Shown here piece after piece: positions 4,199 to 7,799 of a DNA stretch of 11,671 bases. Position 1 is the first letter of the stretch. Every line of letters starts with the position of its first letter. The DNA lies in NCBI GenBank assembly GCA_031280855.1, contig JAITGH010000141.1, positions 1 through 11,671 on the forward strand, given 5' to 3'. The position numbers and the translations under genes are program-made. The notes under the pieces are model-generated. The model did no database searches. It had not been told where the DNA came from and saw only the letters and a program-made list of their open reading frames with translations. This DNA comes from Oscillospiraceae bacterium (lineage in GTDB: Bacteria > Bacillota > Clostridia > Oscillospirales > Oscillospiraceae).

Positions 4199-5209
4199 AT
4201 GAGAAGAAAGCTTACCGCGCTCGCGTGCGCCGCGATTGCGGCCGCGCTGTTAGTCGTATCGCCCTCCGGCGCAGTGACGGAGGTCTATTTCACGTCGGTC
4301 GGCGATCGCCTGTTGCCGCTTACCGCCGCCGATATGCCGGTCAACCTGAACGGCGTGATGTACGTGCCGTACACCGTGTTCAACGCGTCCGCGCTGGGTA
4401 CCAGCGTGTTCTTCTCCCAAAGCTCCCAGATTGTTCAGATTCTGAATAGCTCGAAGGAGCTGAAGTTCAACCTTCAAACGATGCAGACCGAGGACGCGAA
4501 CGGTCGGATCTATACGAACAGTCCGCCAATCATACGCAACGGGAAAGCGTACGTGCCCGCGTCGTTCGTAAGCGGGTTCTTCGGGCTGAAGTACAGCTTC
4601 ATCTCGAACACGGGCGTAGAGAGCATCGTGCGGATCTACACCGCGGACTCGCTGTACCCGACAGACGGCGAGTTCGTCGCCGCTGCGTATACTCGCATGA
4701 AGCTGTACCTCAACGACTATCTGACGTACACGCCGCCGTCCAGCTCTCCGTACACGCCGCCGTCTAACTCCCCGACTCCGTCGCCGACGCCGAACTACTC
4801 GGACATTCAGGTGTCGCTCGTCTTCATCGGTGCAGAGCGCGGCTATGACATACTTACGACGCTGGGAGCGTTGCCGTCCGCGTTCTACCTGACGGCGGAC
4901 GAGATACGCTTGAATGACGATTTCGTGCGAAGGCTTATCGGGGTCGGCAAGCAGATCGGGCTCGTCGAGCTTGAGGGTTCCGCCGTTACCGCCGCCGAGT
5001 ACCTGCGCGAGGTCGCCGTATATCGCTCCGAGCTTATCCTTACGGAGGTGCCGGATACCATCGCGGTAGCCGACGCGTACGAGCTTCTTGCCTCCGCGAG
5101 GCGCAACTCCTCAATAACGTTCGAGTTCGCCGCCGACGCCGATACTGCGGAATCGCTCGAGGCGTTCCTTACGGAGCTCAAGCGCGGGCAGTACTTTGTC
5201 AGCAATTAG
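4199..5209 (+). CDS. Secreted protein: copper amine oxidase-like N-domain plus degenerate deacetylase-like C-half
   Basis: 336 residues. The start is forced: TGA lies four codons upstream in frame, and MRRK plus a hydrophobic Ala/Leu/Val run to SPSGA makes a clear signal peptide. There is hardly any Shine-Dalgarno sequence (only GAG eight bases upstream). Residues about 30-150 follow the copper amine oxidase N1 (Cu_amine_oxidN1) pattern, a wall-associated module common in Clostridia. Examples are NGVMYVPYTVF with a following LG, and GKAYVPASFVSGFFGLKY. A Pro/Ser/Thr linker spans about 176-200. The C-half resembles a NodB polysaccharide deacetylase strand order (SAFYLTADEIRLNDDFVRRL, then GVGKQIGL). 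However, where HxxxH should follow IGL it reads VELEG, so the metal site is missing and catalysis is unlikely. The stop codon lies in the edge of the adjacent palindromic element. The N-domain call is fairly firm; the C-half call is tentative. Confidence 0.8.
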   Translation: MRRKLTALACAAIAAALLVVSPSGAVTEVYFTSVGDRLLPLTAADMPVNLNGVMYVPYTVFNASALGTSVFFSQSSQIVQILNSSKELKFNLQTMQTEDANGRIYTNSPPIIRNGKAYVPASFVSGFFGLKYSFISNTGVESIVRIYTADSLYPTDGEFVAAAYTRMKLYLNDYLTYTPPSSSPYTPPSNSPTPSPTPNYSDIQVSLVFIGAERGYDILTTLGALPSAFYLTADEIRLNDDFVRRLIGVGKQIGLVELEGSAVTAAEYLREVAVYRSELILTEVPDTIAVADAYELLASARRNSSITFEFAADADTAESLEAFLTELKRGQYFVSN

Positions 5210-5261
5210 GGGAACGCTTCCACGCGAGCGCTTCATTGGTTACTATTTCCCGGCAACTACT

Positions 5262-5290
5262 ATTATACCATACTTTGACGTAAATGTCAA
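5262..5290 (-). promoter_or_regulatory. Leftward consensus promoter in the palindromic element
   Basis: Minus strand: TTGACA (5285-5290), 17-base spacer, TATAAT (5262-5267), all twelve positions consensus, with the spacer ending TATGG. It faces the 3' end of the secreted-protein gene on its antisense strand. Confidence 0.75.
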
Positions 5291-5317
5291 GTGCTTTCTC
5301 GCATTTTTGCAAAGTTT

Positions 5318-5351
5318 GTGCACCATGTACAGGTATGAGTACATGGTGCAC
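5318..5351. repeat. Perfect 13-bp inverted repeat at the centre of the element
   Basis: GTGCACCATGTAC (5318-5330) and its exact complement (5339-5351) flank an eight-base loop AGGTATGA. CAAAG/CTTTG continues the symmetry outside with a four-base insertion on the left. It could form a hairpin or cruciform or bind a dimeric protein. No T-run follows, so it is not a classic terminator. Confidence 0.9.
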
Positions 5352-5400
5352 TTTGGATTTGTGAGTATGTACCAAAGATGAGAAACTCCGCAGAAAACAC

Positions 5401-5429
5401 TTGACTTTTGCGCTAAAGTGTGGTATAAT
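5401..5429 (+). promoter_or_regulatory. Rightward promoter in the palindromic element
   Basis: TTGACT (5401-5406), 17-base spacer, TATAAT (5424-5429). The block AAAGTGTGGTATAATA (5415-5430) is identical to the rpmG promoter at 9244-9259. It reads through the right terminal repeat, which can fold as GGAACGC/GCGTTCC, into the 3' end of the permease gene antisense. Confidence 0.75.
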
Positions 5430-5500
5430 AGCAGTAGTCAGAGTTCAGGTGGACGGGGGAACGCTCGCGTGGAGGCGTTCCACTAATTACTAACTCCTAA

Positions 5501-7087
5501 CTACTGCGCGATGTCTCGACGGCGATAGCTCACGTAGCCCACTATGCCGAGAGCAACCGCAATCGCGCTCAGGATCGCAAGCGGAGCGGCGGCGAGCTCC
5601 TCGATTGGAATCTGCGGTACGTTGCCGTACGGCGAGATTCGCACAGCCCAGTCCGGCATGTCGAACAGTCGGCTGAAATACAGCGAGATGAACGAATAGC
5701 CGAACAGTGCCCAGACTAAGCCGACAAATTTCGGAGCAACTCCAACCAAGAACGCCGTCAAGCCCGCGAATACCAGTATTGCCGGGATATGAGAGAATCC
5801 GGAGGCAGCGATTGCCTCGAAGCTCAGGATATTCGTACTTGCCGACGCCGAGTATAGCCCGAGCGCGGTCAACCCCGTCAGCACGACGGTCTCAACGACG
5901 GCGATCAGCGTAATGCTTGCGAACATCTTACCACGCGGAACCGCGCACGCGTAGATCTGCTCCAGCCGTCCGCGCTTCTCCTCCGTGCGAAGCCGAGTGA
6001 ATACGCCGATTACGGGTACGGTGATGATCATCGCCATGATACCGCTGAGCATCGGCAAGAAGCCCTCCGCAAGTGAAGCCGCGCCCGAGCCTTGCAACAC
6101 TTGCTTGATCATGTCGTTGCCCTCTACGAACGAATCCAACTGCCCGATTACGGAGCCGTAGGATGAGCCGAGCACGAACATCGCAATCGCCCACGTAATG
6201 AACCCGCGCTGCACCAGTCGACGGCACAATCCCAACGGACTGCGCATGAACGCTGACGCGCCGTCGCGCCCCTTGCGGGCGGCGAAGACTCCCGCGCCGA
6301 CGTCGCGGCGTGAGTTAACCAGCATCGCGATCGCCCCGATCACTACGCTTTCCGTGAGCAGGATTACGATCGGCGCAAACGCGTTCGTATAGAACGCCTC
6401 GACCCGCAATCCCAATCCGAGCGGTGAAATCAGCGAGAGATCGCTTCCCTTCATGTCCCCGATCGCACGCACGATGTAGCTTGCCCCCATCAGCCCGAAC
6501 GCGAATCCGAGACTTCCGTGCGCCGTGGAGAACAGCTGCGCCATCAGCAGCGTTATCGCCGCGAATACGAAGCCCTGCATACCAATCGACAAGCCATAGC
6601 AGAACGCGCCCGCAACTGTCGTGCCCTCCACGTTCACCGCAAGCGTCAGTAACGCGATGACTACCGCGATTATCATGTCAAGCGCGAACGCGCTTACCAG
6701 CGTCGACGCGCTGCCTGTCAATCGCCCTACCGGAAGCGATGCGAGCATCTCGTGCCGCCCCAGTTCCTCATCAACCCGAGTGTGGCGATTCACAAAGAAG
6801 ATGTTCATAACGATAGCCGCGATTCCGAACCACAGCAAGCACTGCTGCGCCATTGCGATTGCGGTGGTCATTGCATCAGTCCCATAGACGGGTCCGAGCA
6901 TAGCCAGCATCGACGGCGTGGTCAGCGTCGCGGTAAGACTGTACAGCGACTCTTTCGTCGGGAACATTCCGGGATACATAACGCTCAGCAGCAACGCGAA
7001 TCCGGTCAGCGACACGAACCACACTACGCTTACCACGCGCTCCCGCCGAATGATGAACAGTTTGTACTTCAAGAAGTTCGCGAACAT
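5501..7087 (-). CDS. ABC-2 type exporter permease (two-half, about 12 TM)
   Basis: 528 residues from ATG 7085-7087. A longer reading from 7186 is rejected because it lies inside the ATPase gene and encodes no sensible N-terminus, whereas GGGGAGGG precedes the chosen ATG. The protein starts MFANFLKYKLFIIRRERV, a cytoplasmic amphipathic segment, followed by about six membrane spans. A soluble stretch comes near residues 275-300 (RRDVGAGVFAARKGRDGAS). A second six-span half then begins MRSPLGLCRRLVQRGFITW, echoing the first half's start, so the gene looks like an internal duplication. RTEEKRGRLEQIYACAVPRGKM parallels RVDEELGRHEMLASLPVGRLTG in the first half, a repeated cytoplasmic motif of this ABC-2 exporter type. 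It lies one base after the ATPase stop and must act with it, probably in export of drugs, antibiotics or lipids. The substrate is unknown. Confidence 0.85.
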   Translation of the reverse strand: MFANFLKYKLFIIRRERVVSVVWFVSLTGFALLLSVMYPGMFPTKESLYSLTATLTTPSMLAMLGPVYGTDAMTTAIAMAQQCLLWFGIAAIVMNIFFVNRHTRVDEELGRHEMLASLPVGRLTGSASTLVSAFALDMIIAVVIALLTLAVNVEGTTVAGAFCYGLSIGMQGFVFAAITLLMAQLFSTAHGSLGFAFGLMGASYIVRAIGDMKGSDLSLISPLGLGLRVEAFYTNAFAPIVILLTESVVIGAIAMLVNSRRDVGAGVFAARKGRDGASAFMRSPLGLCRRLVQRGFITWAIAMFVLGSSYGSVIGQLDSFVEGNDMIKQVLQGSGAASLAEGFLPMLSGIMAMIITVPVIGVFTRLRTEEKRGRLEQIYACAVPRGKMFASITLIAVVETVVLTGLTALGLYSASASTNILSFEAIAASGFSHIPAILVFAGLTAFLVGVAPKFVGLVWALFGYSFISLYFSRLFDMPDWAVRISPYGNVPQIPIEELAAAPLAILSAIAVALGIVGYVSYRRRDIAQ

Positions 7088-7088
7088 A

Positions 7089-7799
7089 CTAAGCCCTCCC
7101 CTTGTACTCTGACAGGAACAGTTCTTCAAGCGTCGCGCCTCTCTCTCGAATCTCCGGCATTGTACCGTTAAGCACGATCGCGCCATCTTTGATGATACTG
7201 ACGCAATCGGCGAGCTTCTCGACCTCGCTCATAATGTGACTGGAAAGCAGCACAGTCTTGCCCTCGCGCTTGACTTCACCGACGCAATCTTGGAAGACTT
7301 TCTCAAGCAACGGGTCGAGCCCACTTGTCGGCTCGTCAAGCACGAACAACTCCGCGTCAGAGGCGAATGCCGCAACCAGCGCGACTTTCTGACGGTTACC
7401 CTTGGAGTATGTGCGGCACTTCTTGCCTGGGTCGAGTTCAAACTGTGAGAGGAATCGCTCGCGCCGCTTCGCGTCCGGTTTGGAGCCTCGGAACGCCAGG
7501 AACAGATCGACGACCTCGCCGCCTGTAAGGTTATCCCAAAGGTTGACGTCGCCGGGAACGTAGGATAGCCGCTTGTGAAGCTCGACCGCATCCGTCCACG
7601 CGTCACGGTCAAAGAGTCGCAGCGTGCCGGAGTTCGACTTAAGTATACCAAGCAAGCACCGAATCGTGGTGGATTTGCCTGCGCCGTTCGGGCCGAGGAA
7701 TGCGTGCACTTCGCCTTGATTCACCGTCAGATTGACTCCTGACAATGCGTTGACCCTTCCGAAGCGTTTCGTCAGATTGCTGATTTCGATGATGGCCAT
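7089..7799 (-). CDS. ABC-2 exporter ATPase
   Basis: 236 residues, start ATG 7797-7799 with AGGAGGG seven bases upstream, overlapping the TetR stop codon. Walker A is GPNGAGKST (36-44), Walker B LFVLDEPTSGLD (Asp155, Glu156, D-loop Asp162) and the switch is His188 in SSHIMSEVE. The signature is the atypical YSKGNRQKV (131-139) and the Q-loop region reads YVPGDVNLWDNLTGGE without a Gln, both usual in the drug/bacteriocin exporter ATPase group related to CcmA/DrrA-type proteins. The C-terminus ATLEELFLSEYKG is the typical ending of these subunits. It powers the adjacent 528-residue permease, and together they form a two-gene exporter under the TetR regulator. Confidence 0.92.
   Translation of the reverse strand: MAIIEISNLTKRFGRVNALSGVNLTVNQGEVHAFLGPNGAGKSTTIRCLLGILKSNSGTLRLFDRDAWTDAVELHKRLSYVPGDVNLWDNLTGGEVVDLFLAFRGSKPDAKRRERFLSQFELDPGKKCRTYSKGNRQKVALVAAFASDAELFVLDEPTSGLDPLLEKVFQDCVGEVKREGKTVLLSSHIMSEVEKLADCVSIIKDGAIVLNGTMPEIRERGATLEELFLSEYKGRA

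Follow-up and report, generated by a model that had tools for sequence, protein, structure and literature searches.

The palindromic element between the two convergent genes in the window is probably one member of a family of non-coding repeats that is interspersed in the genome and restricted to the species. Each unit is a palindrome of about 168 bp with a promoter at both ends (double-headed) and short leaders outside them, and has probably spread in a MITE-like manner. The window is the whole stretch of 11,671 nucleotides analyzed here, which is contig C79 of an assembly of 1,284,567 bases in 212 contigs with a completeness of 64.37%. The units form a family of fixed length with conserved promoters; they are indifferent to gene orientation and absent from the relatives searched. 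We propose that each end of the unit acts as a near-consensus housekeeping promoter of the stock form of the genus, firing outward. The segment between the two promoters holds a pair of inner dyads and a palindromic centre of weak conservation. The copies would most likely have spread via transposition or recombination acting on non-autonomous DNA. Each copy is predicted to start transcription into both flanks, providing an added promoter for a gene that it faces and antisense RNA at a 3' end that it faces.

The window copy is flanked by an upstream gene on the plus strand (4199..5209), which encodes a copper amine oxidase N-terminal domain (PF07833, E 1.6e-10), and by a gene on the minus strand (5501..7186), which encodes a hydrophobic membrane protein for which Pfam gave no match at 1e-4. 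We call the latter a putative ABC permease, solely from an adjoining ATPase-like frame judged by eye. The core of the repeat unit, from the outer T of one TATAAT to the outer T of the other, spans 168 bp (5262..5429). It is bounded by two outward promoters, the left one TTGACA-17-TATAAT on the minus strand (5262..5290, 12 of 12 consensus letters) and the right one TTGACT-17-TATAAT on the plus strand (5401..5429, 11 of 12), each with a TG before the -10 hexamer; the shuffle mean for this region is 0.5 consensus promoters, compared to the two found. Both promoters reside in an inner inverted repeat of 44 nt (5256..5299 and 5392..5435, 84% complementary), in agreement with the inner inverted copies of about 40 bp with outward promoters proposed in the preliminary description. 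In the family alignment, the left inner dyad TTTGTGCACCATGTACAG lies at 5315..5332 on the plus strand, with the family consensus TTGTGCA-N3-TGCACAA, and the right inner dyad, at 5358..5377 on the minus strand, is degenerate in the window copy. The right transcribed leader starts with AGCAGTAGTCAG (5430..5441, plus strand), which is loosely common to other arms. As single-stranded DNA, the segment 5244-5448 has a folding energy of -44.8 kcal/mol, whereas shuffles average -19.3 (z -8.5); none of 200 shuffles was as good. Each of the two promoters points at the 3' end of one of the convergent genes (4199-5209 or 5501-7186), so that antisense RNA into both neighbours, as suggested beforehand, is the output to be expected from the sequence.

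The boundaries of the element differ from those initially assigned. The palindrome had been drawn at 5209-5484; it is indeed multi-copy with shared ends, but the repeated unit in the window is the inner core alone, about 5256-5440. The inverted copies of 31-33 bp that had been taken as the termini are present as an outer inverted repeat of 33 nt (5198..5230 and 5462..5494, 88%), yet they lie outside the repeated unit, and are neither the ends of the element nor part of the family. BLAST against the own genome found no other place that matches the left outer arm; a single promoter on C105 matches query positions 188-279 at 72%, running into the right outer arm. An outer 20-mer, with up to three substitutions allowed, was found in the window only, among 50 own-genome stretches (150 kb with overlaps counted, C105 included). 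The perfect 13-bp inverted repeat described at the centre also exists (5318..5351, with arms 5318-5330 and 5339-5351, 100%), but it is displaced by about 11 bp from the core's axis of symmetry and occurs in the window copy only. As for the pentamer AATTA, it occurs at both positions noted, 5204-5208 and 5485-5489, the left one overlapping the stop codon of the upstream gene (5207-5209). Its interpretation as a target duplication is rejected, as no direct repeat of 2-9 bp recurs at flank offsets 0-44 over the 15 complete copies, although old copies could have lost such a duplication.

A BLAST search with 5204-5488 against the own genome, in which 40 of 96 candidates were scored, yielded at least 59 matches at E up to 0.001, mostly short matches that cover one promoter only, the long ones spanning about query 44-240. 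Fourteen copies with both arms were aligned, and a sequence-only model, termed R1, was built on 31 arms; with 150 of 511 candidates scored, its search of the own genome gave at least 147 matches at E up to 0.01. With a complete unit defined as paired arms whose model match takes in the inner dyad, there are 15 complete copies (C3, C50, C79, C91, C99, C104, C114, C118, C124, C137, C139, C140, C142, C168 and C179) in many unrelated intergenic sites, which agrees with the earlier reading as a multi-copy element. The distance from TATAAT to TATAAT is 168 bp in nine of them, 169 bp in five and 167 bp in one. Four further copies are damaged or cut: C138 runs into a contig end, C8 has one promoter gone, and C136 and C171 have one dyad-bearing arm each. 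These last two lie in a non-coding segment of about 1 kb that is present twice and holds half an element and a promoter (C136:1-967 and C171:4236-5290; L052 and L050), with 87% over 608 bp plus further pieces. We considered this segment as a larger parent element and rejected it: each of its two copies has a single intact arm with the dyad and a plain promoter, with no predicted gene between, and other widely spaced pairs of intact arms were not found. The single-arm model matches on C185, C131, C89, C46 and C56 were set aside as plain promoters without the inner dyad, as judged by eye; the one at C103:938 retains part of the dyad. In addition, two double-headed units of 114 bp (C13:9373-9486 and C103:7013-7126; L053 and L054) have the same promoter heads and another palindromic centre, GAGCCTC..GAGGCTC.

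From the centre outward, an arm consists of the dyad TTGTGCA-N3-TGCACAA, a weak TTGCG-N4-CGCAA dyad, the -35 hexamer with TTGAC, a spacer of 17 or 18 nt ending in TGTGG, the -10 hexamer TATAAT and a AGCAGTAGTCAG-like leader. Mean pairwise identity over 30 arms is 99.2% in TTGAC and TGTGGTATAAT combined, a value that partly reflects ascertainment, since 14 of the 15 copies were first listed via near-consensus promoter matches. The spacer reaches 53.7%, the stretch between -75 and -30 (numbered from the TATAAT end) 50.3% and the leader (+1 to +12) 40.0%. The model search, which did not demand a promoter, gave one inner arm without a promoter, the left arm of C8, with 150 of 511 candidates scored.

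The promoter sequence by itself is not special to the element. The pattern TTGAC-N13-TGTGGTATAAT with at most one mismatch occurs at 138 places in the own genome, against none for the reversed control; at 93, 119, 96, 29 and 36 places in five congeners; and at 0-51 places in 34 other relatives. It is unusually stereotyped, frequent within the genus and seldom seen in most of the other genera searched. From these counts, the element is assembled around a type of promoter that is characteristic of the genus. The same abundance favors an explanation by native divergent promoters, in which each pair is there for the two genes beside it and the copies resemble one another simply through the stock promoter of the genus. 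A search of the own genome for divergent promoter pairs found 18 places, 15 of which are the repeat family at 167-169 bp. Some divergent pairs (C54, C82 and C90) have no palindromic centre in common with the family, a point for the native explanation, as are the gene starts faced on both sides by C99, C137, C179 and C3. Against it, the spacing is constant, and the copies have in common their inner dyads as well as some 45 bp ahead of the -35 hexamer, which are not seen in plain promoters.

The orientation of the neighboring genes weighs further against native promoters. Gene contexts were assigned with a simple codon-based gene finder together with tRNA genes. Over 14 copies (28 arms), the start of a gene or tRNA is faced by 14 arms and a gene end by 13 (two of them, C114 right and C139 left, by weak gene calls), and one arm has no gene in reach; C50, inspected by eye, has one arm toward a gene start and one toward a gene end. 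The contexts include convergent, co-directional and divergent genes. As the arms face gene starts about as often as gene ends, they are not simply native divergent promoters, and the copies between convergent genes (C79, C124 and C168) largely refute this explanation, which we consider improbable. In C168, the frame of a queuine tRNA-ribosyltransferase (L045:899-1921) ends inside an arm, the -10 region supplying its last codons and stop, as expected for an insertion at the end of the gene.

The flanking genes are of unrelated kinds, including an FtsQ-type POTRA protein, trigger factor, HisZ/HisG-like, fumarase, GGDEF, ATP synthase D, tRNA-ribosyltransferase and SpoIIR proteins. A Pfam scan of 20 proteins encoded by these genes, three of which had no Pfam match, revealed no common function. 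This finding bears on a second explanation, that of a dispersed regulatory site in which two operator dyads (TTGTGCA-N3-TGCACAA) and two promoters answer to one regulator, the regulon having been scattered by selection rather than by movement. Such a site would fit the recurrence of the dyad letters in most arms and the retention of the hexamers; nevertheless, it is at odds with the lack of a common function, with the copies between convergent genes and with the five congeners, where dyad-bearing arms were not found (150 candidates scored each). We therefore regard a scattered regulon as unlikely.

The core folds beyond shuffles in all 15 copies (mean z -8.2), and the middle 67-69 nt do so in 12 of the 15. 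It is conceivable from these results, and from the 114-bp units on C13 and C103 that keep two heads around a different palindrome, that the palindrome is kept for a DNA or RNA fold, as a topological or processing site, with the promoters being secondary. However, no part is less conserved in sequence than the palindrome, whereas the hexamers barely vary. Moreover, much of the folding of the core arises because the two promoters are inverted copies of each other. Compensation from arm to arm is weak or absent: within copies, the uncorrected p values for coordinated change in five segments are 0.023, 0.051, 0.80, 0.024 and 0.049, no coordinated change appears in the fixed alignment, and the covariation term is almost nil (-0.04). 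A flank signal in the arm-to-arm test (p 0.0035) is due mostly to C79 and C99, which have matching inverted modules in their flanks. With three unconvincing tests, wide covariation was rejected as proof that a hairpin is under selection, and a fold as the reason for the family appears very unlikely. The search against Rfam gave two matches below the gathering score (29.5 of 101 and 26.6 of 60 bits), both to animal or plant microRNA hairpins, which we took as chance.

Among relatives, model R1 detected no arm in any of the five congeners at E 1e-9 (150 candidates scored each) and none in 100 other genomes of the taxonomic family at 1e-11 (39 candidates each, with stricter filters). BLAST against 39 other genomes gave promoter-length matches only, in two of them. 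Divergent promoter pairs occur at nine places in four of the 39 other genomes with spacings of 143-171 bp, none at 167-169 bp. The one-arm pattern matched seven stretches in seven records (two near-identical) of the genome_contigs collection, and had no match in viral contigs, either of which collections may omit the own genome; the seven stretches were rejected as relatives of the family, all being single ordinary promoters as judged by eye. The open-licence literature searched holds no description of this double-headed repeat family.

The congener G002 carries a separate, single-headed promoter repeat (for example L093:1481-1586, L095 and L099-L124). It begins with GTTCACAAA, runs for about 66 bp to the end of the -10 hexamer and continues into a leader of about 40 bp. 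With 40 of 130 candidates scored, it was found at no fewer than 40 places at E up to 0.001; apart from the query itself, these are at least 39 places with 83-95% identity. In 27 copies it shows no orientation preference, with 14 facing a downstream gene start, 12 a gene end and one no gene. The 100-350 bp past the repeat (L095-L124) are mosaics of short modules, differently shuffled at each site, which include a GGGGCGAGCA..TGCTCGCCC hairpin and TCCACTGTCTACTCACGAC-like pieces.

The dispersal of the double-headed unit to unrelated sites, its absence from relatives and the apparent insertion in C168 together suggest that it has moved. In four of the five congeners, the 317-400 bp downstream of the TGT gene hold no element, as judged by eye; the neighboring sequence is not shared, and hence these loci do not provide a two-sided empty site. 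The Y1 transposase (PF01797) had no match in the 64%-complete assembly, and the control was found in five of 14 named genomes. Neither a target duplication nor a two-sided empty site nor a Y1 transposase was found; mobility is a likely reading of the distribution, and the term MITE denotes a resemblance rather than an assignment to MITEs proper. The copies are about 50% diverged outside the hexamers, and thus no recent movement is seen.

A speculative and rather improbable extension is that divergent transcription drives negative supercoiling into the palindrome and extrudes a cruciform, in which the element is kept or copied. If true, it would account for near-perfect promoters even where they face only gene ends, with the rest drifting; it would also mean that the genus repeatedly breeds promoter-headed repeats, one per species, double-headed here and single-headed in G002. 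Whatever the mode of spread, if the promoters fire, this genome would contain at least 15 built-in double promoters, with more in its missing third, that read into unrelated neighbors, about half of them in antisense; in the window, both outputs would be antisense. The contrast with the G002 repeat lets one ask whether the promoters themselves are propagated. With the present family, promoter-bearing MITE-like repeats, described from Neisseria, Acinetobacter, Porphyromonas, Coxiella and Shewanella, would extend to a further bacterial lineage.

Comparison with known systems places the family next to several classes of short repeats. As in MITEs generally, the units are short, non-coding and present in many copies with shared inverted ends (15 copies of 167-169 bp). 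REPINs and RAYT-linked REPs are paired inverted palindromic units, interspersed and species-restricted, and the present repeat resembles REPINs in all these respects; it differs in being longer and promoter-headed, and the RAYT-type Y1 transposase is the one for which the 64% assembly gave no match. The preliminary description knew of no named family with this layout, which does not hold, since Correia elements and MITEAba12 both have two outward promoters. The Correia elements of Neisseria (CREE, NEMIS) are non-coding repeats of 107 and 155 bp with many intergenic copies and subtypes reported to have two strong promoters (PMC2229807, PMC10969869); they have putative divergent promoters, 24-bp terminal inverted repeats, a target duplication with terminal TA and a long form with an IHF site (PMC2229807). 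The present repeat is likewise small and non-coding, with inverted ends, many intergenic copies and two outward promoters, here predicted from sequence. Unlike Correia elements, its promoters themselves are the arms, its sequence is unrelated as judged by eye, and Correia-type terminal repeats with a TA-ending target duplication were not found over the 15 copies. MITEAba12 of Acinetobacter has palindromic ends and putative outward sigma-70 promoters in both directions, with transcripts from one; it measures 111-114 bp, has 9-bp target duplications and near-uniform sequence, and has a parent, ISAba12, with matching ends (PMC6382973). Both are short palindromes with putative outward promoters in both orientations, whereas for the present repeat we found no 9-bp duplications, no parent with matching ends and no near-uniform sequence. 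Putative mobile promoters (Matus-Garcia 2012; van Passel 2014), as cited in PMC8049555 and PMC4596501, are near-identical promoters reused before unrelated genes; the present family shares with them a promoter sequence repeated before unrelated genes of one genome, but differs in being double-headed, with a conserved non-promoter interior, a fixed length and gene ends faced as often as starts. Altogether, the layout is already known, and what is new is the sequence family, its species restriction and its arms made from the stock promoter of the host.
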